DNA of 64,000 nucleotides from Szabonella alba (GTDB lineage Bacteria; Pseudomonadota; Alphaproteobacteria; Rhodobacterales; Rhodobacteraceae): NCBI RefSeq assembly GCF_016765775.1, contig NZ_JAESVN010000005.1, forward strand, positions 62,001-126,000, in the 5' to 3' direction. The stretch's first letter is position 1. The number at the start of each line of letters is the position of its first letter. The position numbers were made by a program, and so were the translations under genes. Positions 24,436 through 59,572 of this stretch are shown piece by piece. The notes beneath the pieces were generated by a model. The model saw only the letters and a list, made by a program, of their open reading frames with translations, was not told where the DNA came from and did not search any database.

Positions 24436-24576
24436 CGATTTCCGGGCAATGCCCCCCCAAGCCGGTCCCCGCAGGCAGGCCAAAGGTCGTCCGTTCAGGC
24501 GCCCGGCCCGGCACGGAACATGACAGTCCTTGCCTTCCGCGCGCCCGTTGCGTGCGGCTGACCGGAGGCGCCCCGC

Positions 24577-27795: not shown

Positions 27796-27800
27796 CGGAG

Positions 27801-29731: not shown

Positions 29732-31898
29732 ACGTCAGGGACCGCCCGCGCTGGAGGTCAAGGGGCTCAACGTCTTTTACGGTGCTTCCCATGCGCTGCA
29801 AGGGGTCGATCTGCGGCTGGGATCCGGGGTGCTGTCGGTCGTGGGTCGCAACGGCATGGGCAAGACCACGCTGTGCAAGACGATCATGGGGCTGGTGCCT
29901 GCGGCGGGCGGGTCCATCCTGTTCCGGGGTCAGCCGGTTCTGGGCAAGACCCCTGCCGAGATTGCGCGCATGGGCATCGGCTATGTGCCGCAGGGCCGCC
30001 GCCTCTGGCGGTCGCTGACGGTGGATGAACATCTGCGCATGGTCGCGGGCAAGCCCGGGCCATGGTCGGTGGAACGGATCTATTCCACCTTTCCGCGCCT
30101 TGGTGAACGCAAGGGCAATGGCGGCGCGCAGCTTTCGGGCGGGGAACAGCAGATGCTGGCCATCTCGCGCGCGCTTTTGCAGAACCCGAAACTGCTGGTG
30201 ATGGATGAACCGACCGAGGGTCTGGCCCCCGTCATCGTCAGCCAGGTCGAGGAGATGCTGCTGCAACTGGCCGAGGAAGGCGAGATCGACGTTCTGGTGA
30301 TCGAGCAGAATATCGGGGTTGCCTGCGGCGTCGCCGATACCGTGGCGATCATGGTGAATGGACGGATCAACCGCACCGCCCCGGCGCGCGAACTGGCCGC
30401 AGACCGCGACTTGCAACAGCGGCTTCTGGGCGTCGGACGGCACGGGGATGAGGACGGTCCCGCCCCAGAGGCAGGGCAAGGCGCCGACAAGGCGGCCCCC
30501 ACCGGACCGGTCCGGATTTACCTGTCGAACCCGAAACTGCCGACCCGCTGGTCACGCCCCGCCCCGGTTGAGGCGATCGAGCGCGCCGCCCGCATCGTGA
30601 CCAGCGCGCCCGTGGCCAGCCCGCAGGGGCAGACCGACCTGCGCCCGCTGGCCGCCCCCGGCGCGCAGGTCGTGCTGGTGGCCGGAACGCTGGACACCAA
30701 GGGGGAAGAACTGCGCTTCATCCGCGACCGGATCCGCGCGGCGGGCCTGCCGGTGCGTCTGGTCGATCTGTCCACCTCGGGCGGCCATTCCGGGGCCGAA
30801 GTGCCGGCGCATCTGGTTGCGGCCTTCCATCCGCGCGGTGCGGCGGGGGTGTTTACCGGCGACCGGGGCACATCGGTCGCGGGCATGACCGAGGCTTTCG
30901 CCCGCTGGATCGCGCGGCAGGACGGGATCGCGGGCATCATCTCGGCCGCCGGATCGGGCGGTACCGCCATCGTGGCCCCGGCCATGCGCGCCCTGCCGGT
31001 TGGGGTGCCGAAACTGATCGTGTCCACCGTCGCCAGCGGTGAGGTGCGCCAATATGTCGGCCCTTCAGATATCATGATGATGCATTCGGTCGCCGATGTG
31101 CAGGGGCTGAACGTGATCACCGAGGATGTGCTGGGCAATGCCGCCGAGGCGATGGCGGGCATGGTCCGCGCCCGCCGCGCGGCGGCCCCCCGGCCCGATA
31201 GGAAACCCGCCATCGCGCTGTCGATGTTCGGGGTCACCACACCTTGCGTGCAGCAGATGACAGCCGCCCTGAAAGAGGACTGGGATTGCCTTGTCTTCCA
31301 CATGACCGGGATCGGTGGGCAGTCGATGGAAAAACTGGTCGAGGGCGGGCGCGTCGCAGGCGTGATCGACGCCACCACGACGGAAATTGCCGATATGCTG
31401 TTCGGCGGGGTCTTTCCCGCGACCGAGGACCGGTTCGGTGCGGTGATCCGCCGCCGTATGCCCTATATCGGTTCGGTCGGCGCGCTGGATATGGTGAATT
31501 TCGGCGCGCGTGACACGGTGCCGGTGAAGTATCAGGGCCGGACGTTCTATCAGCACAATCCGCAGGTCACGCTGATGCGCACGACCCCGGCCGAAAATGC
31601 CGAAATGGGCAAATGGATCGGGGAACGGCTGAATCTGATGGAGGGGCCGGTGCGGTTTTTCCTGCCCGAAGGCGGGGTTTCCGCGCTGGATGCCCCCGGT
31701 CAGCCCTTTGACGACCTGGCCGCCCGCCGCGCGCTGTTCGAGGCGCTGGAGGCGACGGTGCGCCAGTCCACCACACGGCAGCTGATCCGCCTGCCGCAGA
31801 ATATCAACGACCCGGCCTTTTCGGCGGCGATGGTGGCAGCGTTCCGCAGCTTCCATGACAGCCCCCGCAAGCCGCGCAGAAAGGACCGCAAGCCATGA
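29724..31898 (+). CDS. fusion of LivF-like ABC ATPase and Tm-1-like ATP-binding (UPF0261) domain
   Basis: A 724-aa two-domain protein. Residues 1-240 are a complete LivF ATPase: Walker [10 protein letters not shown] (41-49), [10 protein letters not shown], signature LSGGEQ (137-142) and Walker B LLVMDEP. Residues about 241-315 are a linker (Gly/Pro/Ala-rich, then a short [16 protein letters not shown] segment). Residues 316-712 form a full Tm-1-like / UPF0261 domain starting [15 protein letters not shown], with [21 protein letters not shown] and [15 protein letters not shown]. There is one continuous frame. The Tm-1-like family binds ATP and in tomato Tm-1 is fused to the same TIM-barrel family encoded by the next gene. 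The ATPase would drive the transporter; the role of the attached domain is unknown. Confidence 0.92.
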
Positions 31899-32749: not shown

Positions 32750-32901
32750 CGATGATCCTGCTTCGGGCGCCGCCCCCCCACCCGCTCCCTCCCCCACGAG
32801 GGGGGAGGGACGCGCCCCGACCTGACCCGGCGCGCGCGACCCGCCGCCAGACCCCCGCCACCGCAAGACGCGAACCGACCACAGAGGAGCGACCGACATG
32901 A
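32746..32901 (+). CDS. small coupled reading frame containing a REP-like palindrome (doubtful)
   Basis: A 51-codon frame fills the 148-base gap. It starts within the stop of the PEP-hydrolase gene (ATGA), is preceded by a strong AAAAGGAGGG ribosome-binding site, and ends within the start of the flotillin-like gene (ATGA). The predicted peptide is Pro/Arg-rich and low-complexity because it reads through a REP-like palindrome. I recognise no family. It may be translated simply to keep ribosomes coupled through the insertion, or may be meaningless. Confidence 0.25.
32769..32815 (-). repeat. REP-like palindromic element, copy 1
   Basis: A C-run / G-run palindrome with core CCCTCCCCCCTCGTGGGGG (minus-strand sense), followed by GAGGGAGCGGGTGGGGGGG. 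An element with the same core and a similar right flank occurs in the opposite orientation at 39.57 kb. It lies in the gap between the PEP-hydrolase and flotillin-like genes. Confidence 0.65.
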
Positions 32902-35843
32902 CCGGGCAACTCATCGGACAACTGATCCTTTGGCTTATCGTGGCCATTGTCGCCATCTTCATCCTGTACTGGGTGATGCACTGGCTTTATCGCCGCTCGA
33001 CCAAGGAAGTGGCCTTCGTGCGCACAGGTTTCCTTGGCGAAAAGGTCGTGATAGACGGCGGCGCCTTCGTCTGGCCGATCATCCATGACATCACCCCCGT
33101 CAACATGAACGTCCTGCCGCTGAAAGTGGCGCGCACCAAGGGTGAGGCGCTGATCACGCGTGACCGGATGCGGGTGGATGTCGAGGCGGAATTCTATATC
33201 CGCGTGCGCCCCGAACGCGCTGCCGTCGCCATGGCGGCATCAACGCTGGGACGCCGCACGCTGGAGCCGGAAAGCCTTCATGCGCTGCTGTCGGGCAAGT
33301 TCGAAAGCGCGATGCGCGCGATTGCCGCCGAAACAGATATGGGCTCGATGCATGAAAACCGCGCGTCCTATGTCAACCGCGTGCGGGATCTGGCGCAGGA
33401 GGATCTGCAAAAGAACGGGCTGGAACTGGAATCGGTCGCGATCCTTGATATCGACCAGACCAGCCTGGAATATTTCAACCCGTCGAACCGGTTTGATGCC
33501 GAGGGTCTGACCACGCTCATCCGCGAGATCGAGGAGCGGCGCAAGCTGCGCAACGATATCGAGCAGGATACGATGATCCAGATCCGCGCGCGCAATCTGG
33601 AGGCCGAGAAACTGGCGCTGAATATCGAGCGTGAGTCTGAATCTGCCCGGCTGGAACAGGAACGCGATGTCGAGTTCCGCCGCGCCCAGCAACGCGCCGA
33701 ACTGGCCCGCGAACGCGCGCAGCGCGAGACCGAGGCCGAGGAGGCCCAGATCACCGCCCGTGAGGTGATCGAGATGAAGCGCATCCTGAATGAGCGGACC
33801 ATCGCCGAGGAGCGCATCAGCTCGGAACGCGAGGTGCGCGGCAAGGAGATCGCCCGCACGCAGGCCATCGAGGCCGAAGAGATCGCCGCCAAGGAGACCA
33901 CCGAAAAGGCCCGTATCCTGCAGGAACGTGCCATCCGTCAGGCCCGCATCGAACAGGAGCGCAGCACGCAATCGGCCGAGATCGAGAAGCAGCAGGCGCT
34001 GGATGCCGCCGAGATCACGGCGCGCGAATCCACCGAACGCGCCCGTATCGCGCAGGAAAAATCCGTGACCGAGGCCCGCATCGCGCGGGACCGTGAGACG
34101 CAGACCGCCGAGATCGCGCGCCAGAAGGAAATTCAGGCCGCCGAGATCGAAGCCGCCGAAGCGACCGAGAAACGCCGCATGGCCCAGACCCTGCTGATCA
34201 ACCAGACCCGCATTTCCGGTGAGGAAAAGGTCAGGATGCAGGAAATCACCCGCGCCCGGACGCTGGACGAGGCCGAGATCGTCGCGCGGGAGGCTGTTGA
34301 GCGCGCCCGCATCGCGCAGGCCGCCGATGTGAATGAGGTGCGCATCGCCGAGGATCTGCGGATCCGCGGGCTTGAGATCGCGCGGCAACAGGCGGTGGAA
34401 GCCGCCGAGATTGCCGCCTCGCAGGCGACCGAGGCCGCCCGCATCGCGCGTGAGAAACAATTGGCTGCCGAACGGATCGCCGCCGATGGCACGACCCGCG
34501 AACAGGAAATCTCCCGCGACAAGGCCATTGACGAGGCCCGCGTTGCCGCCGAGGAGGCGGTGGAGGCCGCCCGCATCGCGCAGCGTCGCAAGCTGGAGGC
34601 TGACCGCATCGCCGCCGCCGAGGCGACACAGGCGCGGGAAATCGCGCAGCGCCGCAAGTTGGATGCCGAACGCATCGCCGCCGAAGAAGCGACCCGTTCG
34701 CGCGAGATTGCGCGCGAACGCGAGATCGAGGCCGCCGATATCGCCCGGCGCGAAGATACCGAACGCGCCCGCATCACGTCGGACCTGAAACTGGAGCAGG
34801 ACCGCATCGCCAGCCAACGCACCCGCGAGGTCGAGGATATCGAGCGCAAGCAAGCCGTTGAGGCCGCCGATCAGGCCCGTGTCGTGTCGCTGGCCGGGGA
34901 ACGCGCCAAGGCGGCGGCGGCAGATGCCAGCGTCAAGCAGGCCCAGATCGCCGCACAGCGCGATGTGGACTCTGCCGAGGTGGACCGCGAGCGTGTCGTC
35001 GAGGCCGCCCGTCTGGAACGCCGCCGCAGTCTGGAACAGCTGGAGATCGCCCGCGTGCAGGCCCTGCGCGAGGCCGAGATCGAAAGCCGCGAGGATGTGG
35101 AACGCGCCCGGATTGCCAGCGAGCGGCAGTTGGACGAGATCCGCATCGACCACGAAAAGATCCGCCGCGAACTGGAAATTGGCCGCGAAAAGGCGGTGGA
35201 AACCGTGCAGATGGACAAGGCCATCGCGCTTTATCAGAAATCGCTTGAGGAAAGCGCTGCCCGCGCCGAGGCCGATGCCGCCCGCGCCCTTGCCGCGCAG
35301 GCCGAGGAAAAGGTCAAGACGGTGCGGGATACCGAAGTGGCCAGCCGCAAGAAATCCATCGATGTGCTGATGGCGGAAAAGGCCGCCGACGAAGCGCGCC
35401 ATATGGCGACCGCCGCACAGCTTCGCGCCGTGGTCGAGGCGGAGGCTGCGAAACTTCTGAACGAGGCCGAGAACATCCTGACCGACGAGGCGCGGCATTC
35501 GCTGTTCCGTCGCAAGCTCCTGGAACATGTCGAGGGTATTGTCACGGCCTCGGTCAAGCCCTTGGAGAAGATCCAGGACATCCGCATCATGCAGCTTGAT
35601 GGCATCCATGGCGGCGGCTCCGGCTCGGGCGGCAGCCCCACGGATGAGGTCATCAATTCCGCGCTGCGCTACCGGGTGCAGGCGCCGCTGATCGACGGTC
35701 TGTTGGCCGATATCGGAATCGAGGGCGGCAACCTGACCAAACAGGGCGGGCTGATCCGCGAGGCGTCCGACATGCAGCGCATCAACGAGGCCGCGAAGAA
35801 GGCGACCAAACCCGATGCCAAACCGGATGGGGAGAAGAAGTAG
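32898..35843 (+). CDS. flotillin-like SPFH protein with giant hendecad-repeat stalk
   Basis: A 981-aa protein, almost twice the usual flotillin/YqiK length. Residues about 8-28 form one N-terminal transmembrane helix. Residues 31-235 form an SPFH/Band 7 domain (VAFVRTGFLGEKVVIDGGAFVWP, VDVEAEFYIRV). From 241 to 782 the sequence is an almost uninterrupted 11-residue repeat with Ile at position 1 and A-E/A-R at the end. A flotillin-type C-terminus follows (LLNEAENILTDEARHSL, HVEGIVTASVKPLEKIQDI) with a Gly/Ser linker and a Lys-rich tail. AGAGGAG precedes the start. SPFH proteins assemble into large membrane-attached rings or cages; here the stalk would be some 80 nm if a single straight helix (inference). 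It is embedded in the transporter/hydroxylase operon, suggesting a scaffold for that pathway. Confidence 0.9.
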   Translation: MTGQLIGQLILWLIVAIVAIFILYWVMHWLYRRSTKEVAFVRTGFLGEKVVIDGGAFVWPIIHDITPVNMNVLPLKVARTKGEALITRDRMRVDVEAEFYIRVRPERAAVAMAASTLGRRTLEPESLHALLSGKFESAMRAIAAETDMGSMHENRASYVNRVRDLAQEDLQKNGLELESVAILDIDQTSLEYFNPSNRFDAEGLTTLIREIEERRKLRNDIEQDTMIQIRARNLEAEKLALNIERESESARLEQERDVEFRRAQQRAELARERAQRETEAEEAQITAREVIEMKRILNERTIAEERISSEREVRGKEIARTQAIEAEEIAAKETTEKARILQERAIRQARIEQERSTQSAEIEKQQALDAAEITARESTERARIAQEKSVTEARIARDRETQTAEIARQKEIQAAEIEAAEATEKRRMAQTLLINQTRISGEEKVRMQEITRARTLDEAEIVAREAVERARIAQAADVNEVRIAEDLRIRGLEIARQQAVEAAEIAASQATEAARIAREKQLAAERIAADGTTREQEISRDKAIDEARVAAEEAVEAARIAQRRKLEADRIAAAEATQAREIAQRRKLDAERIAAEEATRSREIAREREIEAADIARREDTERARITSDLKLEQDRIASQRTREVEDIERKQAVEAADQARVVSLAGERAKAAAADASVKQAQIAAQRDVDSAEVDRERVVEAARLERRRSLEQLEIARVQALREAEIESREDVERARIASERQLDEIRIDHEKIRRELEIGREKAVETVQMDKAIALYQKSLEESAARAEADAARALAAQAEEKVKTVRDTEVASRKKSIDVLMAEKAADEARHMATAAQLRAVVEAEAAKLLNEAENILTDEARHSLFRRKLLEHVEGIVTASVKPLEKIQDIRIMQLDGIHGGGSGSGGSPTDEVINSALRYRVQAPLIDGLLADIGIEGGNLTKQGGLIREASDMQRINEAAKKATKPDAKPDGEKK
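33618..35210 (+). repeat. hendecad (11-residue, 33-bp) tandem repeat within the flotillin-like gene
   Basis: Thirty-nine consecutive 11-residue units run from residue 241 to 669 without a break in phase, then one 14-residue unit, then eight more to residue 771. Typical units are IAQEKSVTEAR, IARQKEIQAAE, IAAEEATRSRE and IASERQLDEIR. Superimposed is a 44-residue (four-unit, 132-bp) super-period over residues 274-581, seen as repeated xxxAxxAAE / ITAREsTERAR / IAQEkxxxEAR / IARDrxTQxxE blocks. One extra 22-residue unit (IAQRRKL...) looks like a recent duplication. Confidence 0.9.
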
Positions 35844-36281
35844 ATGGCCCGCGTCTATGTCTCATCTGTGATCGACGCGCCCGTGGCCAAGGTCTGGGAA
35901 CGGGTGCGCGATTTCAACGCCCTGCCGCGCTGGCATCCGCGCATCCGCGACAGCCGGATCGAGAATGGCGAACCGTCCGACCGTGTGGGCTGCGTGCGCG
36001 ATTTCCACCTGCAGAACGGTGACCGGCTGCGCGAGAAACTGCTGGGCCTTTCGGATTACGATTACTTCTGCACCTATGCGATCCTCGAAAGTCCGATGCC
36101 GCTGACCGATTACATCGCGACGCTGCGCCTGACCCCGGTGACCGATGGCGACAAGACCTTCATCGAATGGTCGGCGGAATTCGAATGCGCGCCCGAGGCC
36201 GAGGCCGATCTGGTGGCAGGCATTGGCGGCAATGTCTTTCAGGCGGGTTTCGACGCGCTGAAGCGGCAGATGGCGGGCTGA
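35844..36281 (+). CDS. SRPBCC-family protein 1
   Basis: A 145-aa START-like (polyketide cyclase/dehydrase-type) protein with the VYVSSVIDAPVAKVWERVRDFNALPRWHP N-terminus and the helix QAGFDALKRQM at the end. SRPBCC folds enclose hydrophobic ligands; some (CoxG) occur in carbon monoxide dehydrogenase-type clusters. It starts directly after the flotillin stop and is followed one base later by a paralogue. It may chaperone or cyclise a pathway intermediate, or assist hydroxylase assembly. Confidence 0.83.
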   Translation: MARVYVSSVIDAPVAKVWERVRDFNALPRWHPRIRDSRIENGEPSDRVGCVRDFHLQNGDRLREKLLGLSDYDYFCTYAILESPMPLTDYIATLRLTPVTDGDKTFIEWSAEFECAPEAEADLVAGIGGNVFQAGFDALKRQMAG

Positions 36282-36282
36282 G

Positions 36283-36729
36283 ATGGTCAAGGTCGTCAAA
36301 AGCGCGATCCTCAATGCCCCCGTAGAAGCGGTCTGGGAGGTTCTGCGCGATTTCAACGGCCATGACCGCTGGCACCCGATCGTGGCCGAAAGCCATATCG
36401 AAAAGGGCCTGCCCGTCGACAAGGTGGGTTGCGTGCGCAACTTCCGTCTGGCGGGCGGGGAAAACCTGCGCGAATTGCTGCTGACCATGTCGGATGCCGA
36501 TATGGCCTTCAGCTATTGCCTGCTGGAAACGCCGGTGCCGCTGCTGAACTACGTCGCCCATGTGCGGCTGTTGCCGGTGACCGATGGCGACCGCACCTTC
36601 TGGCATTGGGAAAGCCGGTTCGACACGCCCGCCGGGCGGGAGGCAGAGCTGCAGCAGATGGTTGGCGAAAATGTCTATCAGGGCGGGATCAACGCGGTCC
36701 GCGCCTATATGGGGCTGGAGGAAGGCTGA
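36283..36729 (+). CDS. SRPBCC-family protein 2 (tandem paralogue)
   Basis: A 148-aa protein clearly homologous to the preceding gene product: both share AP-V--VWE-LRDFN---RWHP, DKVGCVRNF-L--G--LRE and LTPVTDGDKTF-type blocks. The pair therefore arose by tandem duplication and has diverged substantially. Its stop overlaps the start of the FAD subunit gene (TGATG), tying it to the molybdenum hydroxylase. The function is inferred only at the fold level. Confidence 0.83.
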   Translation: MVKVVKSAILNAPVEAVWEVLRDFNGHDRWHPIVAESHIEKGLPVDKVGCVRNFRLAGGENLRELLLTMSDADMAFSYCLLETPVPLLNYVAHVRLLPVTDGDRTFWHWESRFDTPAGREAELQQMVGENVYQGGINAVRAYMGLEEG

Positions 36730-37526
36730 TGGCGGTGACGGTGGAAACCCATGGCGCGCTGGCCGATGCGGCGCGCGCAATGGCGGGGGGCGGCACCTAT
36801 ATGGGGGGCGGCACCGTCCTGATGCGGGGTGTCAATGACGGCTCGGTACAGGGCCGCCTTTTGCGCAGCACGGACCCCGCGCTGCGCGCGATCCGCGCCA
36901 CGGGCGACGGGTTCACATTGGGGGCAGGGGTCACGATGGCCGATGTTCTGGCCTCACGCGATTTGGAGTTCCTGCATCCCGTCGCGCGCGTGATCGGCGG
37001 CCCGCAGGTGCGCGCAATGGCAACGGTTGGCGGCAATCTGTTCGCCCCCCATCCCTATGGTGATTTCGCAACGGCACTGCTGGCGCTTGGCGCGCGGGTG
37101 GTTCCGGCGGCGGGTGGCAGCCCCCGCCCGCTGGACGATATCCTGCGCGACCGTGCCCGCCCGCACCTTCTGGCCGCGATCGAGGTGCCGCGCCCGCGCG
37201 ATGCCCGCGCCTTCGGCTTCCTGAAGGTCAGCCGGGTGAAGCCCAAGGGGGTTTCGGTCCTGTCCATCGCGGCCCATCTGCCGCGCGATGGCGGACGACT
37301 GCGCAATGTTCGCGTCTCTTACGGTGCCATGGGTCCGGCACCCCTGCGCGCGGTCTCGGTCGAACAGGTGCTTGAGGGGCAATCGCTGGACCCCGCCACC
37401 ATCGCCCGGGCGGCGCAGGTCGCCGCCGAGGGGCTGGACCCGCCCACGGACCCGATTTCCTCGGGCTGGTATCGGCGTGAGGTGGTCGGCGTACATCTGA
37501 AACGGCTTCTGGAAAGGATGGCGTGA
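36729..37526 (+). CDS. molybdenum hydroxylase FAD-binding (medium) subunit, CoxM/XdhB-like
   Basis: A 265-aa FAD subunit. It has the two FAD motifs in modified form: GGGTYMGGGTVLM at 20-32 (usually AGGTDLL) and ATVGGNLFAPHPYGD near 98-112 (usually TIGGN..N..P.AD). The CO-dehydrogenase flavoprotein C-terminal domain follows. Family members pass electrons from the Fe-S subunit to an acceptor. The start overlaps the SRPBCC stop; the small subunit gene begins one base after this stop. At 265 aa it is slightly short for the family (about 280). Confidence 0.9.
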   Translation: MAVTVETHGALADAARAMAGGGTYMGGGTVLMRGVNDGSVQGRLLRSTDPALRAIRATGDGFTLGAGVTMADVLASRDLEFLHPVARVIGGPQVRAMATVGGNLFAPHPYGDFATALLALGARVVPAAGGSPRPLDDILRDRARPHLLAAIEVPRPRDARAFGFLKVSRVKPKGVSVLSIAAHLPRDGGRLRNVRVSYGAMGPAPLRAVSVEQVLEGQSLDPATIARAAQVAAEGLDPPTDPISSGWYRREVVGVHLKRLLERMA

Positions 37527-37527
37527 T

Positions 37528-38001
37528 ATGGCGATGAAACCCGTCACATTCACCCTCAACGGTCTGGCCAAGGCGGCCTTTACTGAAGACGGGCAGAACC
37601 TCTTGGATTTCCTGCGCCGGGGCGTGGGGGATATGGCCCCGAAATATGGCTGCGGGCAGGGGGGCTGCGGCGCCTGCACGGTGCTGCTCGATGGTGTGCC
37701 GCATCTGTCCTGCCTGACGCTGGCCGAAACGGTTGAAGGCCGCCGCGTCGATACCGCCTCGGGCCTTGCAGGAGCCACGATTTCACCCCTGCAAGAGGCG
37801 TTCATGGATCGTTTCGCCGCGCAATGCGGCTATTGCACGCCTGGCATGCTGATGGCCGCAACCGCGCTGCTGGCGAAAAACCCGCGCCCGAACCGCGACG
37901 AGGTGATCGAGGCGATTTCCGGCAATATCTGCCGCTGCACCGGATATGAGCCGATCATCGCCGCCATTCTGGATGTGGCCGAAGGGAGGGTCGGGGCATG
38001 A
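37528..38001 (+). CDS. molybdenum hydroxylase [2Fe-2S] (small) subunit, CoxS-like
   Basis: A 157-aa two-cluster ferredoxin-type subunit. The plant-type cluster ligands are C42, C47, C50 and C62 (CGQGGCGACTVLLDG). The second, helical domain supplies C100, C103, C135 and C137 (QCGYCTPGM, ICRCTGY). It shuttles electrons between the Mo cofactor and FAD. It overlaps the large-subunit gene by 4 bases. All eight cysteines are present, so it should be functional. Confidence 0.95.
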   Translation: MAMKPVTFTLNGLAKAAFTEDGQNLLDFLRRGVGDMAPKYGCGQGGCGACTVLLDGVPHLSCLTLAETVEGRRVDTASGLAGATISPLQEAFMDRFAAQCGYCTPGMLMAATALLAKNPRPNRDEVIEAISGNICRCTGYEPIIAAILDVAEGRVGA

Positions 38002-39722
38002 AGGATATCCCCATGGTCGGCGGCAACATGATCGATTTCCGCAAGGAATTCTTTGCCGATGAACGCCCCGAGGTTCTGAACGAGATCGGCAAGCCGACGC
38101 GACGGCAGGACATCACGGGCCATGTCACGGGCCGCTCCCCCTTCTATGACGATCATCAGTTCGAGGGGCTGTTGCATATGCGCTGCCTGCGAAGCCCGCA
38201 TCATGCGGCGCGGATCCGGCGCATCGACAGCACGGCCGCCGAAAAGATGCCCGGCGTGGTGCGCATCGTCACCGGGCGCGATGTGCCGCGCAACCTGAAC
38301 ACGCTGCTGAGCCTGCTGGATTTCGGCATCGACGATGAACCGATCATCGCCACCGACCGCACCCGTTACCGGGGTGAGGCCGTGGTGGCCGTTATCGCCC
38401 GCACCGACCGCGAGGCCCGCGACGCCGCCGCCGCCATCCGCGTGGACTGGGAGGTGCTGCCCCATGTTCTGGATGTGGAAGAGGCGGTCAAACCCGGCGC
38501 GCCTGCGGTTCTGGACATCTATCCCAACAACAAATTCGCCTATCACGGCAAATACGACCATCAAAAACTGCGCTTCGGCGATGCCGAAACCGCCTTTGCC
38601 CAGGCCGATCATGTGATCGAGGGGCGCTATCAGATGTCGCCCATCGAACAGGCCCCGATTGAGACCTGCGGTGCCATCGCAGCCCCCGAACAGGATGGCC
38701 GCTATGTCTGCTATACCTCGACGCAGGCGCTGTTCTTCTCGCTCGGAACGGCGGCCAAGGTGCTGGACCTGCCTTCGTCGCGGCTGCATTTCATCGGCGG
38801 CACCGTGGGGGGTGGCTTTGGGGGCAAGGTCGACAGCATCCATGAACCCATGGCCATTCTGGGCGCGATCCTGACGGGCCGCCCGGTGAAATTCATGTGG
38901 GACCGCGAAGAGGAAATGCAGGTCGGCGCGCCGCGCGGGGCCGAGCTGTGGTATGTCAAGGATGCGGTGATGCGCGACGGGCGCATCATCGGGCGGAAAT
39001 TCACCGGCTATTTCGACAGTGGTGCCTATACCCGCCTGTCCAGCTACGCGATCATCAAGGGCGTCGGCCATCTGCCGGGGCCTTACACGATCCCGAATGT
39101 CCATGCCGATGTCTATTGCGTCTATACCAACCGCACGCCTGCGACGGCGATGCGCGGCTTCGGCATCACCGGCGTCGATTTCGCCATCGAGGCGCATATG
39201 GACAAGGTGGCCGATACGCTGGGCATGAACCCGATCGAATTGCGCCTGCGCAATGCGTATCGGGACGGTGACATGAAGGCGCATAGGCGGCTGGCCAAGA
39301 ATTGCGCGCTGATCGAATGTTGTCAGGTCGTGGCCGAAAAGGCGGGGGTGAAACTGTCGCCTGAACTTGCAGCCCTGTCCTCGACCAAGGGCGGAGGCGG
39401 GGATCGCGCGCAGATGCCCGCCTTCACCCGCACCGATGAAAACGGCCGGGTCGAAGGCTACAAACCCTGGAGTTATGCGCGCAAGGATGGCGCGAAACGC
39501 GACCCGATCCCGCCGGGCATGGCCCCGCCGCCGCAACAGCCTGCACCGACCTATCAGGCCTCTCGCCCCCCGTCCCCCTCGTGGGGAGGGGATGGGGGAG
39601 GGGGGCAGACCCAAAGCGGAGGCAGCGCCCCGCCCGCCAGCCCGCCACCCAATCCGCCTGCAGCCCCCGCCCGCCCTGGCGCGATGCGCTTTTCGTCCCT
39701 CTCTGGTTTTCGGAGGCGCTGA
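37998..39722 (+). CDS. molybdenum hydroxylase large subunit, N-terminal half (Mo cofactor-binding)
   Basis: 574 aa corresponding to roughly the first two thirds of a CoxL/XdhA-type subunit. It has the aldehyde oxidase/xanthine dehydrogenase a/b hammerhead domain (GHVTGRSPFYDDHQ) and the first Mo-cofactor domain with GGGFGGKVDSIHEP. The active-site loop is TAMRGFGITG, like xanthine/aldehyde oxidoreductases and unlike the CSFR loop of aerobic CO dehydrogenase. From about residue 505 the sequence becomes a Pro/Gly/Ser-rich low-complexity tail that spans a REP-like palindrome, then the frame ends. The remaining catalytic domain is the next gene, one base downstream. Both halves are probably needed to form one subunit. 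Confidence 0.9.
   Translation: MKDIPMVGGNMIDFRKEFFADERPEVLNEIGKPTRRQDITGHVTGRSPFYDDHQFEGLLHMRCLRSPHHAARIRRIDSTAAEKMPGVVRIVTGRDVPRNLNTLLSLLDFGIDDEPIIATDRTRYRGEAVVAVIARTDREARDAAAAIRVDWEVLPHVLDVEEAVKPGAPAVLDIYPNNKFAYHGKYDHQKLRFGDAETAFAQADHVIEGRYQMSPIEQAPIETCGAIAAPEQDGRYVCYTSTQALFFSLGTAAKVLDLPSSRLHFIGGTVGGGFGGKVDSIHEPMAILGAILTGRPVKFMWDREEEMQVGAPRGAELWYVKDAVMRDGRIIGRKFTGYFDSGAYTRLSSYAIIKGVGHLPGPYTIPNVHADVYCVYTNRTPATAMRGFGITGVDFAIEAHMDKVADTLGMNPIELRLRNAYRDGDMKAHRRLAKNCALIECCQVVAEKAGVKLSPELAALSSTKGGGGDRAQMPAFTRTDENGRVEGYKPWSYARKDGAKRDPIPPGMAPPPQQPAPTYQASRPPSPSWGGDGGGGQTQSGGSAPPASPPPNPPAAPARPGAMRFSSLSGFRRR
39563..39608 (+). repeat. REP-like palindromic element, copy 2
   Basis: The core CCCCCTCGTGGGGAGGGG is followed by ATGGGGGAGGGGGGCAGACC. 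It matches the reverse complement of the element at 32.77 kb in the core and in the G-rich right arm. It is translated in frame as part of the low-complexity tail of the first large-subunit gene. Confidence 0.65.
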
Positions 39723-39723
39723 C

Positions 39724-40746
39724 ATGACCATCCATCGCGGACGCGGCTTTGCCTGCATCAACTATCCCATCGGGATGAACCTTGGCGGCGACCCGTCTCA
39801 GGCGCTGGTCCATTCCAACCCCGACGGAAAATTCACGGTCGCGCTGTCGGCCATTGACCTTGGGCAGGGCATGAAATCGGTCTGCCGCCAGATCGCCGCC
39901 GAAACCCTCGGCATCCCGGTCGAGGATGTCTATGTAGATACCGCCGACAGTGATACCGGCCCGCATGACATGGGGTCTTTCGCAAGCCGTGGCACGCACC
40001 GGATGGGCAATGCCGTCATCATGGCCGCGAAAGAGGCGCGTTCGGTGATGCTGGAGGCCGCCGCCGAGGAACTGGAGGTGGACCCCGCCGATCTGGTGAC
40101 CGATGGCAAGGGCAATATCCATGTGAAGGGCGCGCCCTCGCGGTCAATCACCACCATGGCCGCGTCGCAGGCGGCGCAGTTCCGGCAGGGCCGCACCATT
40201 GCCGGGCGTGGCATCTTCCTGATCCCGCTGTCGGATGTGGACCCCGAAACCGGTGAGATGACACCGGTCACCACCTTCGCCCATGCCGCGATGCTGGTCA
40301 CGGTCGAGGTCTGCGACGAGACCGGAGAGGTGACCGTGACCGATATGCAATCGGCCTATGAGGTTGGCCGCGCGCTGAACCCCAAGCTGGTGGAACAGCA
40401 GTTGCGCGGCGGCGCATGGATGGGAATGTCGCATGCCGCATGGGAAACGACCGAGCCACATTATCCGTCGCGCGACCATGGCGCGGTGGATTTCAACGGC
40501 TATCTGATGCCGGGGCCGGGGGACCTCGCGCCGCATCATATCTCGATCCTCGAACGCCCTGCGGCTGATGGCCCGTTCGGCGGCAAGGGGCCGGGTGAGA
40601 TGTGCGCGAACCCGGTGCTGCCTGCCGTGGTCAATGCCGTCTTTGATGCGGTGGGCGTGCGCATCGACGCGCTGCCGGTCACGCCGGAAAAGGTGCTGCG
40701 CGGGTTGAAATCGCAAGGCGGTGCAAAGCCGCGCCAAAGGCTCTGA
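39724..40746 (+). CDS. molybdenum hydroxylase large subunit, C-terminal half
   Basis: 340 aa equivalent to the C-terminal Mo-cofactor domain of CoxL/XdhA. It begins MTIHRGRGFACINYPIG (normally internal in the single-chain enzyme) and contains VALSAIDLGQGMKSVCRQIAAE, the DTGPHDMGSFASRGTHRMGNAV cofactor loop and the catalytic Glu in GKGPGEMCANP. GGAGG 7 bases before the ATG indicates it is a genuine separate start. Its upstream neighbour ends in a low-complexity tail, so the split looks like a fission of an ancestral single gene. The next gene is a MoxR-type maturation ATPase. Confidence 0.9.
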   Translation: MTIHRGRGFACINYPIGMNLGGDPSQALVHSNPDGKFTVALSAIDLGQGMKSVCRQIAAETLGIPVEDVYVDTADSDTGPHDMGSFASRGTHRMGNAVIMAAKEARSVMLEAAAEELEVDPADLVTDGKGNIHVKGAPSRSITTMAASQAAQFRQGRTIAGRGIFLIPLSDVDPETGEMTPVTTFAHAAMLVTVEVCDETGEVTVTDMQSAYEVGRALNPKLVEQQLRGGAWMGMSHAAWETTEPHYPSRDHGAVDFNGYLMPGPGDLAPHHISILERPAADGPFGGKGPGEMCANPVLPAVVNAVFDAVGVRIDALPVTPEKVLRGLKSQGGAKPRQRL

Positions 40747-40750
40747 CGCC

Positions 40751-41629
40751 ATGGCGGTGCGCCCTTCCATCCTTGGCATCGACGGGCCTGAACCGCTGGC
40801 GCGGTCCCTGCGCGATGCGCAATATATCGCGGATGAGGGGCTTTCCACCGCCGCCTATCTGGCGCTGGCGCTTGGCAAGCCGCTGCTGCTGGAAGGCGCG
40901 CCCGGTGTCGGCAAGACCGAGGCGGCCAAGGCCATCGCCTCGGTTCTGGGGCGCGAACTGATCCGCCTGCAATGCTATGAGGGGATCGACGCCGCCGCCG
41001 CCATGTATGAATGGAACTTCCCGCGCCAGATGCTGGCCATCCGGCAGGCGGGGGAGGGCTATGTCAATCTTTACGCCGATGATTATCTGATTGCCCGGCC
41101 CCTGCTGCTGGCCCTGCAAGAGCCGCGCGCGCGGGTGCTGCTGATCGACGAGATTGACCGCGCCGATCCGGAGTTTGAGGCGTTTCTTCTGGAATTCCTG
41201 TCAGATTTCTCGATCTCCATCCCCGAACGCGGCACGATCCGCGCGGCCGAGCCCCCGGTTGTCCTGCTGACCTCCAACCGCACCCGCGAATTGCACGAGG
41301 CGCTGCGGCGGCGCTGCGTCTATCACTGGATCGGCTATCCCGATCCGGCGCTTGAGGCGCAGATCGTGATGATGCGGGCCTCCAGCGTGGCGCAGGAAAC
41401 CGCGCATCGCGTGACCGCCGCCGTCAACCGGCTGCGCGCCGAACCGTTGGCCAAGCCCCCCGGCGTGGCCGAAACCGTGGAATGGGCCGAGGCCGCGACG
41501 CTTCTGCACAATCAGGGCGCTGCCTGGCCTGCCGCCTTTGCCCGCGCCATCGGGGTCGCGCTGAAGGATCAGGACGATCTGGCCTTCACCGCGCCGCGTC
41601 TTGACCAGCTTATCACGGGGGCGGCATGA
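40751..41629 (+). CDS. MoxR-type AAA+ ATPase (CoxD-like)
   Basis: A 292-aa AAA+ ATPase with Walker A GAPGVGKT (49-56), Walker B LLIDEID (130-136), sensor 1 LTSNRTRELHEALRRRC and the MoxR-typical insert region. In CO dehydrogenase clusters the homologue CoxD acts with the VWA protein CoxE to mature the Mo active site. It is followed, after a spacer of about 120 bases carrying a degenerate intergenic repeat, by the CoxE homologue. A role in maturing the adjacent hydroxylase is the best inference. Confidence 0.93.
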   Translation: MAVRPSILGIDGPEPLARSLRDAQYIADEGLSTAAYLALALGKPLLLEGAPGVGKTEAAKAIASVLGRELIRLQCYEGIDAAAAMYEWNFPRQMLAIRQAGEGYVNLYADDYLIARPLLLALQEPRARVLLIDEIDRADPEFEAFLLEFLSDFSISIPERGTIRAAEPPVVLLTSNRTRELHEALRRRCVYHWIGYPDPALEAQIVMMRASSVAQETAHRVTAAVNRLRAEPLAKPPGVAETVEWAEAATLLHNQGAAWPAAFARAIGVALKDQDDLAFTAPRLDQLITGAA

Positions 41630-41747: not shown

Positions 41748-42845
41748 ATGATCCCCCGCGCGATCCGCCCCTTCCTTGCCTTCCCGCAGGCCCTGCGCGC
41801 TGCGGGCCATCCGGCGGCACCCGAACAGGTGCAGTCCTTCCTTGCCGCTGTCTCACTTCTGGGGCCGGGCTCGATCCGCGATATCCGCCGCGCCGCGCAT
41901 GCGATCTTCGGCCCCGGCCCGGACCGGAGCGAGGAATTTGACGAGATCTTCGACATAATCTTTCTGGGCCGCACGTTCTTTGCCCCCGCCGAGGGCGAGG
42001 TCGAGGAGCTTCCCGAAAGCTATGATGCCGGGGAGTTCGACCTGCTGCCCGAACCGGATGAGGAAGATCCCTCGGGGGCCGAGGCCACGGCGCTGGAACG
42101 GCTTTTTGCCCGCAGCCTTGCTGCCGGTGATCCCGATGCAATGCTGCGCGCCTTTGCCCGGGCGCTGCCCGCGGCGCTGCCGCGCCGCCGTTCCCGCCGG
42201 ATGAGCCCCGGCAAGGGGCCGCTGCCCGATCCGGCCCGTGCCTTTCGTGAGATGATGCGCCGGGATGGAGAGATTTCCCGCCTGCCCAGCCGTCGCCGCC
42301 GGATGCGCCAGCGCCGCGTGCTGATGCTGCTGGATGTGTCGGGATCGATGAAATCGGGCACCGAGGATGCCTTGCGCCTTGCGCACCGTCTGATGCAGGC
42401 CGGGGAACGGGTCGAGGTTTTCACCCTTGGCACCCGTCTGACCCGGGTTTCCCGCGCGTTGAAACACCGCAATCCCGATCAGGCGCTGATGCTGGCCTCG
42501 GGGCTGGTGGCCGACTGGGATGGCGGCACAAGGCTGGGGGAGGCGCTGGCGGTGTTTCTGTCGGTGCCGCGCTTTGCCAGTTTTGCCCGTGGCGCGCTGA
42601 CCATCATCCTGTCCGACGGGCTGGAACGCGGCGGCCCCGAGGCGCTGACGGCGGCCGTATCGCGGCTTGCGGGGCTGTCATGGTCGGTTCTGTGGCTGTC
42701 GCCGCTGGCCGCCGATCCGGCCTATCGCCCCGAAACCGCCGCGATGCAGGCCATTGCGCCATTGCTGGACCGGCTGGGCGACGGGTCGCGCCCGGACCGG
42801 ATTGCCCGGGAAATCCTTGATTTCGCGAAAGGAGCGCGCAGATGA
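41748..42845 (+). CDS. VWA-domain protein, CoxE-like
   Basis: A 365-aa protein with a helical N-terminal region, an acidic middle (residues about 83-112, rich in Asp/Glu), an Arg-rich stretch (144-190) and a C-terminal von Willebrand A domain with the MIDAS motif DVSGSMKS at 196-203 and later DWDGGTRLGEAL and LSDGLERGG. CoxE-type proteins partner MoxR ATPases in activating molybdenum hydroxylases or other metalloenzymes. It overlaps the amidohydrolase gene by 4 bases. Confidence 0.92.
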   Translation: MIPRAIRPFLAFPQALRAAGHPAAPEQVQSFLAAVSLLGPGSIRDIRRAAHAIFGPGPDRSEEFDEIFDIIFLGRTFFAPAEGEVEELPESYDAGEFDLLPEPDEEDPSGAEATALERLFARSLAAGDPDAMLRAFARALPAALPRRRSRRMSPGKGPLPDPARAFREMMRRDGEISRLPSRRRRMRQRRVLMLLDVSGSMKSGTEDALRLAHRLMQAGERVEVFTLGTRLTRVSRALKHRNPDQALMLASGLVADWDGGTRLGEALAVFLSVPRFASFARGALTIILSDGLERGGPEALTAAVSRLAGLSWSVLWLSPLAADPAYRPETAAMQAIAPLLDRLGDGSRPDRIAREILDFAKGARR

Positions 42846-43717
42846 TCGACGCGCATTTCCATATCTGGCGGCAGGCCGATCTGCCCTGGCTGATGGGTCC
42901 GATGCAGCCACGCATCTTCGGCCCCTATGAGCCGATCCGCCGCGATTACCCGGTCACCGAATATCTTGACGATATCGCGGGGCTTGGCGTGACCAAGGCG
43001 GTCTATGTGCAGGCCAACTGGCCGCCCGACCGCGCCGAGGCCGAGGTGAACTGGCTTGAGGATACGGCGCTGGCCTCGGGCTGGCCGATGGGGATCGTGG
43101 GCTATGCCGATATGACGGTGCCCGATGCCCGGCCCGCGCTTGACCGGCTGGCGCGGTCTCCGCGCCTGCGCGGCATCCGCCAGCAATTCCACTGGCACGA
43201 AAACCCGATGTATCGTTTCGCGGCCCATTCCGACCTTTGCCGCGATCCGGCGGTTCAGCGCAATATCGGCCATCTGGCCGATTACGGCTGGTCCTTTGAT
43301 CTGCAGGTCTTTGCCGGACAGCTTGCCGGGGCCTGCGACCTGCTGGATGCCTGCCCGCGCGTGAATTTCATCCTGCAGCATGCCGGGATGCTGGAAGACA
43401 CCAGCGCCAAAGGCCGGGCCGACTGGCAGGCGGCGATGACGGATTATGCCCGCCGCCCCAATGCGTTTTGCAAGCTGTCGGGATTCGGCACCTTCATCCA
43501 TCGCAACGATCCCGCGCATATCCGCTGGCTGGTCGAAACCTGCGTCGGCATCTTCGGGGCCGAACGTTGTCTCTGGGGCTCGAACTTCCCCATTGAAAAG
43601 CTCTGGACCAGCTATTCCGCCCTTCTGGGCGCGCATCGCGATGCCGCGGCCTCGCTGACCGAGGCACAGCGCCGCGCCATCTTCACCGACACCGCAAGCC
43701 GGGTTTACCGGCTCTGA
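42842..43717 (+). CDS. amidohydrolase-2 family TIM-barrel hydrolase
   Basis: A 291-aa metal-dependent hydrolase of the amidohydrolase_2 / L-fuconolactonase-like group. The metal-binding HxH is at residues 5-7 (DAHFHIW). Other landmarks are GIRQQFHWHENP, the His in ILQHAGML and the C-terminal LWGSNFPIEKLW. That last motif has Asn where many members have Asp (GSDWP); this Asn variant occurs in a known subgroup. Members hydrolyse lactones or decarboxylate/hydrolyse ring-derived acids, in line with the adjacent lactonase-like genes. The exact substrate is unknown. Confidence 0.87.
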   Translation: MIDAHFHIWRQADLPWLMGPMQPRIFGPYEPIRRDYPVTEYLDDIAGLGVTKAVYVQANWPPDRAEAEVNWLEDTALASGWPMGIVGYADMTVPDARPALDRLARSPRLRGIRQQFHWHENPMYRFAAHSDLCRDPAVQRNIGHLADYGWSFDLQVFAGQLAGACDLLDACPRVNFILQHAGMLEDTSAKGRADWQAAMTDYARRPNAFCKLSGFGTFIHRNDPAHIRWLVETCVGIFGAERCLWGSNFPIEKLWTSYSALLGAHRDAAASLTEAQRRAIFTDTASRVYRL

Positions 43718-43736: not shown

Positions 43737-44585
43737 ATGGCACTGGAAATCAAGATACTGGATTACGGCGATATCGAACTGGAAAGCTCGTTCCTTGTTC
43801 TGGGCCGCGATTGCGGGCGCCGGCGCCGTGTGCCGGTCTATGGTTTCCTGATCCTTGGCGGCATCTATCCGATTGTCGTCGATACCGGATATCGCGACAA
43901 TGCGATCATGGAAACGCTGGGAATGCGGGGTCTGCAATTCCACGAAAACATGATTGAACGCCAGTTGGCCAATCACGGCGTCAAGGTCGGCGATGTGCGC
44001 TATGTGCTGCACACCCATCTGCATATCGACCATGCGGGCAAGGATGACTGTTTCCCGATGAACACCACCGTGGTCATCAACCGGCGTGAGATGGAATATT
44101 CCGTCTCGGGCCTGATGCATCCGCAATATCCCAAACCCGATATCATGCATCTGGTCGAACGGCTGCACACCCCCGGCGCGTTGCGGCTGGAGGATCTGGA
44201 GATCGCGGGTGAGGTCGAGATCATCCCCGGCGTCACGATGGAGGCGGCAGGCGCCCATACCGAAGGGTCGATGAATGTCCATGTCGAGACCGCCGAAGGC
44301 CGCGCCACGATCTGTGGTGATGTGATCTATGATTTCAACGATCAGATCATCAACCCGCTGCGCAGCTTTGGCCCCGAAGAGTTTCAGGTCACCGGCAACC
44401 ATGGCGGATCGAAGCGCGATGAAAAGGCACAGATCAGAAAGCTGCTGAACAAGTCAAAATTTCTGCTGCCGATCCACGACAAACCGGCGAAAATCGAACA
44501 TGGCGTGGTCGTGGGGCGGCTGGACATGTCTGTGCCCGGCCCGGTCAGCCAGTCGGTCCCGCTGCGCAACTGGTTCCCGGTGTAA
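43737..44585 (+). CDS. metallo-beta-lactamase-fold hydrolase, AHL-lactonase-like
   Basis: A 282-aa MBL-fold enzyme with the di-zinc motif HTHLHIDH at 92-99, the bridging segment GAHTEGSMNVHVETAEG (third His) and the Asp in ICGDVIYDF. The overall pattern is that of the N-acyl homoserine lactonase family, which opens lactone rings. In this context a pathway lactone is more likely than quorum signals (inference). An AGGGAGG ribosome-binding site lies ahead of the ATG. It is between an amidohydrolase and an SMP-30-type lactonase. Confidence 0.88.
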   Translation: MALEIKILDYGDIELESSFLVLGRDCGRRRRVPVYGFLILGGIYPIVVDTGYRDNAIMETLGMRGLQFHENMIERQLANHGVKVGDVRYVLHTHLHIDHAGKDDCFPMNTTVVINRREMEYSVSGLMHPQYPKPDIMHLVERLHTPGALRLEDLEIAGEVEIIPGVTMEAAGAHTEGSMNVHVETAEGRATICGDVIYDFNDQIINPLRSFGPEEFQVTGNHGGSKRDEKAQIRKLLNKSKFLLPIHDKPAKIEHGVVVGRLDMSVPGPVSQSVPLRNWFPV

Positions 44586-44588: not shown

Positions 44589-46175
44589 ATGGCCCATAGC
44601 GCGCTTGACCCGAGCTTTCGCCGCCTGATCGACGAACACGCCCCGGTTCGTCAGGCGGGCAGCGGCTTCATCTTCACCGAAGGGCCGATCTGGCATCCGG
44701 TGGACAATTACCTGCTCTTTTCCGACATGCCCGGCGATACGCGCCGCAGGCTGGACGGGGCGGGGGTGCGTGAGGTTGCGCGCCCCTCGAACAAGGGCAA
44801 CGGCATGACCTATGATGCCGATCTCAATCTGCTGGTCTGCGAACATTCCACCAGTTCGGTCGCGCGTATCCGCCCGGATGGCACGCGGGAGGTGCTGGCC
44901 AGCCATTTCGAGGGGCGGGAACTGAATTCGCCCAATGATATCGTCGTGAAATCGGATGGTTCGATCTGGTTCACCGATCCCTGGTATGGCCGTATGCCGC
45001 ATTTCGGGGTGGAACGGCCCCGGCAACTGGGCTGGCAGGGGGTGTTCCGCATTCCGCCGGGCGCGCGGCCGGGGGCGGAACCCGACCTGATGGTGGACCG
45101 CTACACTTTCACCCAGCCCAACGGGCTGTGTTTCTGCCCGGACGAATCGAAACTTTACATCAACGATACCGAACAGGCGAATATCCGGGTCTATGACGTT
45201 ACCCCGCAGGGGCTGAAGAATGGCCGGATCTTTGCCAGTGGCCTGCGCGACAGTCTGCTGCCCGGTGTTCCGGACGGGTTGAAATGCGACGCCGAAGGCA
45301 ATGTCTGGTGCTGCGCGCCGGGGGGGCTTTGGGTCTATGCGCCTGATGGCCGCCTGATCGGCAAGGTCTCGGTCCCCGAACTGCCCGCGAATTTCCATTG
45401 GGGCGGGCCGGACTGGCGCACGCTTTATGTCTGCGCTACGACCTCGGTCTATGCGATTCCCGTCAAGGTGGGGCCGAAGCCCGAACCTTTCATGCGCGCG
45501 CGCCCGGCTGCGCGGTCGGCTGCTGCTGAAGGCGGGGCCGGTGCTGCTGCGGCGGGATCATCGGGCGATGACCTGCGGCTGGATGCGTCACGCGCGGCGC
45601 TGATCATTCAGGACATGCAGAACGACGTGGTGATGGAGGGCGGCGCCTTTGCCGCCTCGGGCAGCCCGGCCCATTGCCGCGAACAGGACGCGATTGCCAA
45701 TATCGCACGGCTTGCCGCGCGCTGCCGCGAACTGGGCGTGCCGGTGATCCATGTCTGGTTCGTCCGCCGGGCCGATGGGGCCGACATGACGCTGAATGCG
45801 CCGCTGTTCGAAGGGGCGGTGGATGCCAATGCGCTGGTCGAAGGGACATGGGGGGCGGAACCCGTGCCGGGGCTGGAGGCGAAGCCGGGTGATTATATCG
45901 TCACAAAGAACCGGATGAGCGCCTGGGAAGGCACGCGGCTGGAAACGATCCTCAAGGCCAACGGCCGCGATCTGATCATCGAGACCGGCGCCTGGACCAA
46001 CATGAGCATCGAACACACCGCGCGCACCGGGGCCGACAAGGGCTATGTCATGGTCATCCCCGAGGATGGCTGTTCGACGATGAATGCCGACTGGCACCGC
46101 GCCAGCGTGGACTATGCGATGCAGAATGTGGCGCTGGTGACCAAGACTGCCCGGGTGATCGCAGCTCTGGGCTGA
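44589..46175 (+). CDS. fusion of SMP-30/gluconolactonase-like and isochorismatase-like domains
   Basis: A 528-aa two-domain protein. Residues 1-300 are an SMP-30/LRE six-bladed propeller with metal-site residues in FTEGPIW (Glu31), NSPNDIVV (Asn115), QPNGLCF and VPDGLKCD (Asp229). Residues about 302-330 are an Ala/Gly-rich linker. Residues 331-528 are a cysteine-hydrolase (isochorismatase) fold with Asp342 (QDMQND) and Lys440 (TKNRMSAW). The expected nucleophilic Cys position is Ser473 (TNMSIEH). The C-domain is thus unlike nicotinamidase-type amidases and may be a non-cysteine hydrolase. It is the last gene of the operon, followed by a hairpin repeat. Confidence 0.9.
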   Translation: MAHSALDPSFRRLIDEHAPVRQAGSGFIFTEGPIWHPVDNYLLFSDMPGDTRRRLDGAGVREVARPSNKGNGMTYDADLNLLVCEHSTSSVARIRPDGTREVLASHFEGRELNSPNDIVVKSDGSIWFTDPWYGRMPHFGVERPRQLGWQGVFRIPPGARPGAEPDLMVDRYTFTQPNGLCFCPDESKLYINDTEQANIRVYDVTPQGLKNGRIFASGLRDSLLPGVPDGLKCDAEGNVWCCAPGGLWVYAPDGRLIGKVSVPELPANFHWGGPDWRTLYVCATTSVYAIPVKVGPKPEPFMRARPAARSAAAEGGAGAAAAGSSGDDLRLDASRAALIIQDMQNDVVMEGGAFAASGSPAHCREQDAIANIARLAARCRELGVPVIHVWFVRRADGADMTLNAPLFEGAVDANALVEGTWGAEPVPGLEAKPGDYIVTKNRMSAWEGTRLETILKANGRDLIIETGAWTNMSIEHTARTGADKGYVMVIPEDGCSTMNADWHRASVDYAMQNVALVTKTARVIAALG

Positions 46176-58251: not shown

Positions 58252-59544
58252 TCAGACGATCACTTCTTGTGCCTGCTGTTCCCCGACGCCGAAAACCCGC
58301 TTGTAGCGCGCGATTTCCGCCTCGGGGCCCATGGCCTTGTTGGGATTGTCCGACAGTTTCACCGTCGGCCTTCCATCGGCGGCCACGGCCTTGCAGACAA
58401 GGCTGAACGGGGCCAGCCCGTCGCCCGCAACCAGCCCCCGGAAATCATTGGTCAGCATCGTGCCCCAGCCGAAGGACACCTTGACCCGTCCGGCGAAACG
58501 GCGCTGCAACTCCTCGATCTTCTCGACATCCAGCCCGTCCGAGAAGATCACCAGCTTGTCGCGCGGGTTCTCGCCCCGCGCGGTCCACCAGTCGATGGCG
58601 GTTTCCGCGCCCAGTGCCGGATCGCCGCTGTCGATGCGGATCCCGGTCCAGGCCGCAAGCCAGTCGGGCGCGCGGTCCAGAAAGCCCTTGGTGCCATAGG
58701 TATCGGGCAGCATGATGCGCAGATTGCCGTCATGTTCCTCATGCCAGTCGGCCAGCACCTGATAGGGGGCCTGCGCCAGCGCCGCATCATCGGGCGCCAG
58801 CGCGGAATAGACCATCGGCAGTTCATGCGCATTGGTACCGATGGCCTCAACCTCGCGCCGCATCGCGATCAGGCAGTTCGATGTGCCGGCAAAGGCCCCG
58901 CCCAACCCTTCCTGCAGCGCCTGAACGCACCAGTCCTGCCACATGAAGGAATGCCGCCTGCGCGTGCCGAAATCGGCAAGGCGCAGGCCGTCGACCGCGC
59001 GCAGCCGCTCAACCTTTTCCCAAAGCCGCGTCATCGCGCGGGCGTAAAGCACCTGCAATTCGAACCGCCCCATGCTGCGCAGCACCGCGCGGGACCGCAG
59101 TTCCATCAGCACCGCCAGCGCAGGAATTTCCCACATCATCACCTCGGGCCAGCGTCCCTCGAAGGTCAGTTCATACTGGCCATCGCGCTTTTCCAGATGA
59201 TAGGGCGGCAGTTGCAGCCCCTCGAACCATTCCATGAAATCCGGGCGGAACATCTGCCGCTTGCCGTAAAAGGTGTTGCCGCGCAGAAAGGTGCTTTCGC
59301 CACGCGACAGGCGCAGGCTGCGGATATGGTCAAGCTGTTCGCGCAACTCTCCCTCATCCACCAGATCCGCCAGCCGGATGGATTTCGTCCGGTTGATCAG
59401 GCTGAAGGTTACAGTGGTGTCGGGCTTGTTGCGAAAGATCGACTGACACATCAGAAGCTTGTAGAAATCGGTGTCGATCAGCGACCGCACAATCGGGTCG
59501 ATCTTCCATTTGTGATTGTAGACGCGCGTGGCGATATCGACCAT
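58252..59544 (-). CDS. pncB: nicotinate phosphoribosyltransferase
   Basis: Converts nicotinate and PRPP to nicotinate mononucleotide in the Preiss-Handler NAD salvage route. The 430-aa product starts at [13 protein letters not shown]; the open frame upstream lacks family similarity. Landmarks are [17 protein letters not shown], the active-site [10 protein letters not shown] at 191-200, [25 protein letters not shown] and [10 protein letters not shown] with [12 protein letters not shown] (phosphoribosyl binding). It lies 28 bases downstream of pncA, which supplies its substrate. Confidence 0.96.
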
Positions 59545-59572
59545 TTCAGGGGCTCCGTTCGGGCGGCGGCTG

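Follow-up and report, generated by a model that had tools for sequence, protein, structure and literature searches.

The open reading frame at positions 44589-46175, on the plus strand of the Szabonella alba contig, specifies a 528-residue protein in which an SMP-30/gluconolactonase (SGL) domain is fused to an isochorismatase-like hydrolase (IHL) domain that carries Ser where the nucleophilic Cys of the IHL triad is expected. We put at about even the chance that this protein is a bifunctional catabolic hydrolase, in which a metal-dependent lactonase and an active, Cys-less IHL would act on neighboring pathway intermediates. That reading is supported by the retention of the triad Asp and Lys and of the putative SGL metal ligands in all 90 distinct fusions aligned (window included), by the existence of unfused gene pairs, by a conserved operon core, and by the similar conservation of the two domains. 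Throughout, the window is the whole 64,000-nucleotide stretch that was analyzed, from a genome of 4.2 Mb.

The Pfam SGL match covers residues 29-283 (44673-45437; E = 1.3e-48, 166 bits against a cut-off of 26.3), and the Pfam Isochorismatase match covers residues 337-521 (45597-46151; E = 5.1e-44, 151 bits against a cut-off of 27). Both are near full-length against their profiles, in agreement with the first-pass annotation, which had described two complete domains joined by an Ala/Gly linker. The Ala/Gly-rich linker, at about residues 303-330 (45495-45578), is unstructured in an AlphaFold model of the full fusion built on a 65-row alignment, with pLDDT below 50 at residues 305-326, and it separates two confidently predicted domains whose relative orientation is uncertain (pTM 0.59). 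Its length ranges from 8 to 45 residues among the aligned fusions, always within the same alignment columns. The translated frame places Asp342 (45612-45614), Lys440 (45906-45908) and Ser473 (46005-46007) where the annotation had put them; their roles are assigned by analogy.

The fusion is a recurrent architecture. A genome-collection scan returned at least 80 fusion loci at 66-88% identity, and 257 of 280 matched stretches encode some relative. Among the matches listed, the highest identities to named records are 88% (a Gemmobacter MAG), 84% (a Rhodobacteraceae MAG) and 81% (a Roseomonas isolate), and most of the listed records are labelled alphaproteobacteria (Rhodobacteraceae, Roseomonas, Hoeflea, Hyphomicrobiales, Methylobacterium, Elioraea and others); the scan also found the fusion in records named Mesorhizobium and Sedimentitalea. 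Two listed MAGs are labelled Granulosicoccus and one Bacteroidales, the last of which is perhaps misbinned. Among same-family genomes, 17 of 198 have a match that spans almost all of the 528 residues; at the level of the phylum the count is 11 of 398, with eight in a single genus, and the window's own genome is included in each count. G022 and G062, same-family genomes in which pieces of the fusion lie in different frames, were left out. The annotation had proposed a survey of the fusion across genomes; the resulting alignment contains 97 rows (80 from the genome collection, 16 from the same family, and the window), of which 90 are distinct sequences. All 96 rows from other records have an open frame and are near full-length, that is, they start at or before residue 30 and end at or after residue 480, and the fusion is therefore not a sequencing artefact.

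Mean identity to the window over these 96 rows, seven of which are exact duplicates, is 76.9% for the SGL domain, 76.2% for the IHL domain and 27.9% for the linker. Four distinct comparisons (with L084 excluded as a repeat of L004) gave Nei-Gojobori dN/dS ratios of 0.09-0.18 for the SGL domain and 0.14-0.22 for the IHL domain, values that are rough because synonymous differences are large. The IHL value is slightly above the SGL value in each of the four, which counts against the bifunctional reading; nonetheless, similar conservation and purifying selection on both domains make a decayed C-domain unlikely and argue for a domain under selection.

Asp342 and Lys440 are each present in 90 of the 90 distinct fusions, and Trp469, Asn471 and His476 are invariant (Trp469 and His476 each 90/90). 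The third triad position is Ser in 89 and Ala in one (L099), and Cys occurs in none. We compared this column with 53 rows of standalone IHLs (52 genes, L188 and L212 being one place), which were chosen as the hits most similar to the C-domain and are not a random sample; it holds Cys in 33, Val in seven, Ser in six, Ala in five and Gly in two. A smaller set of 21, made up of 20 picked from the best standalone matches in family genomes and the PncA-like protein of the window's genome, gave Cys in 16, Val in four and Gly in one. That PncA-like protein, which has its Cys and is the only other Pfam Isochorismatase match found in this genome, is encoded at 58252-60160 together with an adjacent nicotinate phosphoribosyltransferase. 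Cys495, the nearest Cys after Ser473, was considered as a displaced nucleophile and rejected as a leading candidate: it belongs to a separate motif in which Cys-type standalone proteins often have Cys as well (10 of 17), and it is Thr in one of the 90 fusions. Because Ser473 aligns with the Cys column and Cys495 lies in that separate motif, no other Cys occupies the catalytic position; such a Cys is what the annotation had said would overturn it. By profile, fold, and its Asp and Lys, the C-domain is a member of the IHL superfamily, and it lacks the nucleophilic Cys that defines the Cys-amidohydrolase subgroups (PncA, N-carbamoylsarcosine amidase, RutB, BiuH).

The near-uniform Ser raises the alternative that Ser473 is itself the catalytic nucleophile, the IHL domain then being a serine esterase or lactonase that works through an acyl-serine intermediate. 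Its retention in 89 of 90 fusions goes beyond what a spectator residue would seem to need, which counts against the bifunctional reading, and Ser is likewise found in four of four unfused partners and in the distant standalone proteins L172 and L175. The lactonase-like neighbors suggest ester chemistry, and a weaker nucleophile suffices for esters than for amides. Against a nucleophilic Ser stand the Ala residues of fusion L099 and of the standalone proteins L213 and L171, and also two mutants of characterized Cys-type enzymes: TrtA C162S is inactive (PMC7948467) and MhIHL C111S has sharply reduced activity (PMC5353710). These losses indicate that a simple Cys-to-Ser change in the IHL fold is poor for amides, and Ser473 is thus unlikely to be a plain substitute nucleophile. 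PMC5353710 also suggests that lactamase activity depends on a nucleophilic residue, for instance Cys, Ser or Thr, which leaves some room for this alternative; we regard it as unlikely.

The bifunctional reading accords with what is known of the superfamily. According to PMC5353710, the D-K-C triad is present in three of six IHL subgroups and its Cys is missing from the rest; PhzD has D38-K122-G155, with Gly at the Cys position, YecD has D26-K112-G145 and is without gamma-lactamase activity, and a cis-peptide is a feature of the active site. Cys-less IHLs are therefore an established kind, and PMC5353710 and PMC7948467 agree with the earlier statement that the Cys is required by amidases of this fold and not by PhzD-type isochorismatases. 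With Asp and Lys in all 90 fusions, Cys in none, and Cys-less IHLs on record, the non-cysteine hydrolysis that the first-pass annotation had attributed to the C-domain appears well supported. Asp342 and Lys440 would serve as an acid/base and electrostatic pair, a C-O or C-N bond would be broken by activated water without a thioester intermediate, and Ser473 would position the water or the substrate. That Ala occupies the position of Ser473 in one fusion and in two relatives favors such a water attack assisted by Asp342 and Lys440.

The N-terminal propeller is probably a lactone-opening enzyme. Glu31, Asn116, Asn178 and Asp229 are each present in 90 of 90 distinct fusions; we take them to be metal ligands, as in SMP-30 and DFPase, and the propeller would open its lactone in a metal-dependent manner. 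The whole model is matched best by 3e5z (Z 41.6, rmsd 1.8, 286 residues aligned) and 3dr2 (Z 39.1), both of which carry the name gluconolactonase. The fold is common to the SMP-30/gluconolactonase/LRE family (3e5z, XC5397 [3dr2], RPA3624 and Caulobacter xylonolactonase; Z 29-42), and the putative metal ligands are the same; unlike these named members, the SGL domain studied here has an IHL as its partner, in a fusion or as the product of an adjacent gene. A Paraburkholderia plasmid encodes a standalone SGL (L113:14001-14921) that shares 63% identity with the fused domain; it lies in a cluster annotated with an intradiol dioxygenase and a maleylacetate reductase, and no IHL match was found in the 28.9 kb examined around it. 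A propeller of this type can thus work alone, which counts against the bifunctional reading.

The same standalone propeller, together with the loss of the Cys and the tendency of IHLs to form oligomers, favors the alternative that the C-domain is a non-catalytic module for binding, oligomerization or channeling that serves the lactonase. The pure binding module that the annotation had offered as a second option is disfavored by the invariance of Asp342, Lys440, Trp469, Asn471 and His476 and by a C-domain nearly as well conserved as the lactonase part, and we consider it distinctly unlikely.

Superposition of the C-domain model (AlphaFold, pLDDT 87, 31-row alignment), which had been suggested with EntB and PhzD versus PncA as references, gave 3kl2 as the best match (Z 30.7, rmsd 1.5, 197 residues aligned), followed by RutB (27.2), BiuH (26.0), YecD (25.4) and maleamate amidohydrolase (25.4), with PncA (about 24), PhzD (23.6), VibB (23.4) and EntB (23.0) lower; all are of one fold and values less than 1 apart are tied, so that the order ranks likeness only and shows no function. 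The uncharacterized 3kl2 is Cys-type by sequence alignment. That the nearest folds in this comparison (3kl2, RutB, BiuH) are Cys-type counts against the bifunctional reading. Cys-type IHLs (3kl2, RutB, BiuH, TrtA) share the fold (Z 25-31) and the Asp and Lys with the C-domain, which differs from them in having Ser in place of the nucleophilic Cys. YecD and PhzD resemble it in having Asp and Lys without Cys, and differ from it in having Gly at that position; the GAWTN motif, the lactonase-like fusion partner and the conserved operon further set the fusion apart from them. Of the NCBIfam models, PRK11440, presumably that of YecD, fits the IHL part best, at 89 bits against a 195-bit cut-off, a score below that required of an equivalog. 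EntB/PhzD isochorismatases typically have a GxYAH motif along with Gly at the Cys position, whereas the C-domain reads GAWTNMS where the one Gly-type relative compared (L158) has GIYAH. Hydrolysis of a vinyl (enol) ether by an EntB/PhzD-type C-domain, the example given in the annotation, is recommended by the Cys-less Asp-Lys arrangement of PhzD (PMC5353710) and by the alignment of PhzD, VibB and EntB at Z 23.6, 23.4 and 23.0, but the higher scores of 3kl2, RutB and BiuH and the replacement of GIYAH by GAWTN do not favor it, and we hold it to be highly improbable.

The loss of the Cys appears to be older than the fusion. A search of 385 genomes of the class revealed separate, adjacent SGL and IHL genes in four genomes (G656, G758, G844, G915) of one other family, in which the first IHL start codon lies 11-13 bases past the SGL stop. 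The unfused IHLs are 51-55% identical to the fused domain and have Asp, Lys and Ser in four of four, and these neighboring genes support the proposal that lactonase and C-domain are linked in function. One pair is adjoined by an Amidohydro_2 gene whose product is 56% identical to that of the window. Pfam analysis of ten genes near the pairs found SDR proteins at two loci, a luciferase-like protein at two, and single matches to hydantoinase A, CN hydrolase and others, and yielded no nameable pathway. Deeper standalone relatives also lack the Cys: L213 (Ala, 42%), L172 (Ser, 34%) and L171 (Ala, 34%), as does L175 with Ser. In the first tree the fused clade has a support of 0.98 and its join with L171 0.76. 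The simplest history, to judge from these small trees, would be that a standalone enzyme lost its Cys, became paired with a lactonase gene, and was then fused to it. The annotation treated Ser as a feature of this fusion; the residue looks like a trait of an older clade in which the fusion came later.

The fusion gene follows a series of plus-strand genes. Immediately upstream are genes for a metallo-beta-lactamase (MBL)-fold hydrolase (43737-44585; AiiA/4-pyridoxolactonase-like, far below those cut-offs) and an Amidohydro_2 protein (42842-43717; L-fuconolactonase-like, 101 bits against 400), preceded by a CoxE-type VWA protein (41748-42845), a CoxD/MadB-like AAA ATPase (40721-41629) and a xanthine-oxidase-family Mo-hydroxylase (36429-40746) that begins with its FAD subunit, whose true start is uncertain, and continues with the 2Fe-2S subunit (37528-38001) and the large subunit in two parts (37998-39722, and 39724-40746 with an inferred start). 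The order from FAD subunit to MBL is kept at other loci. In genome-collection loci with enough upstream DNA for each gene, the FAD subunit was found in 48/48, 2Fe-2S in 49/49, large part 1 in 50/50, large part 2 in 52/53, CoxD in 58/59, CoxE in 64/65, Amidohydro_2 in 59/66 and MBL in 69/72. Five of the 13 misses are from L066, whose 7.3 kb of upstream DNA yielded none of these five genes. Same-family loci with about 1.5 kb of flank had MBL in 13 of 16, the gene not being found in that flank of L092, L096 and L099. L099, the only fusion with Ala at the nucleophile position, has CoxE directly upstream and neither MBL nor Amidohydro_2 in its 1.5 kb flank. The four loci at which operon genes were not found (L066, L092, L096, L099) count against the bifunctional reading. 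The large subunit (37998-40746) is split into two adjacent genes in 57 of 57 loci with both parts matched; a comparable split is known from the nicotinate dehydrogenase of Eubacterium barkeri. A form-II CO dehydrogenase (CODH) operon was rejected on account of this split and because the large subunit has an RGFG stretch and lacks the Cys motif of the CODH active site.

Farther upstream in the window are two SRPBCC (Polyketide_cyc2) proteins (35844-36729), a flotillin-like protein whose charged middle part is very long (32898-35843), a phosphoenolpyruvate-hydrolase-like protein (PF09370; 31895-32749) and a branched-chain-amino-acid-type ABC importer with two permeases and two ATPases (26740-31898). 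One ATPase (28916-29731) was assigned by eye; the other, of LivF type, precedes a UPF0261 (Tm-1-like) protein in a single reading frame (29640-31898). Eight more regions were examined (two plasmids and six stretches of five genomes), of which one plasmid region has the standalone SGL only and one stretch is downstream. Flotillin is present in four of the eight, in the same operon; only in L114 and L164 does the DNA upstream of the fusion exceed 15 kb, and these two have the importer ATPases, UPF0261, PEP-hydrolase-like protein, flotillin and SRPBCC in the window's order. A periplasmic binding protein, an iron-type alcohol dehydrogenase (4-hydroxybutyrate-dehydrogenase-like, below cut-off) and an AraC-type regulator, encoded at 22838-26659 upstream of the permeases, are perhaps part of the same cluster. 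Downstream, where many loci are short, an SDR cluster is found at 26 of 96 loci (median distance 1.3 kb; same strand for 23 of 28 genes) and one of FAA hydrolases at 12 of 96 (same strand for 9 of 12), each named by Pfam from one member; the downstream part of the window has neither, and an HPP/CBS gene lies there on the other strand. With the model for 2,4-didehydro-3-deoxy-L-rhamnonate hydrolase the FAA hydrolase reaches 432 bits, short of the 500-bit cut-off; together with the Amidohydro_2 score, this hints at sugar-acid-like or ring-opened acid intermediates. In the pathway that we envisage, the ABC importer would take in the substrate and the Mo-hydroxylase would oxidize it, after which the other lactonase-like hydrolases would act.

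What appears to be new here is the fusion, the Ser clade and the operon; Cys-less IHLs and SGL lactonases were known already. We found no paper that joins SMP-30 with isochorismatase, in a search outside which most subscription journals lie, so that the fusion may have been published. Cys-less IHLs are numerous and, to our knowledge, the reaction is known for few. The evidence points to a two-step reaction carried out by a lactonase and a Cys-less IHL in one protein. More tentatively, the fusion may represent a new class of Cys-less IHL enzyme with an undescribed lactonase-coupled reaction, in an undescribed, widespread aerobic pathway of alphaproteobacteria that starts with a split Mo-hydroxylase. 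Since this IHL forms one polypeptide with a lactonase-like domain and belongs to an operon conserved in many alphaproteobacteria, its substrate should be findable by growth and knockout tests, and the result would add a pathway to many genomes in which these genes carry family names only.
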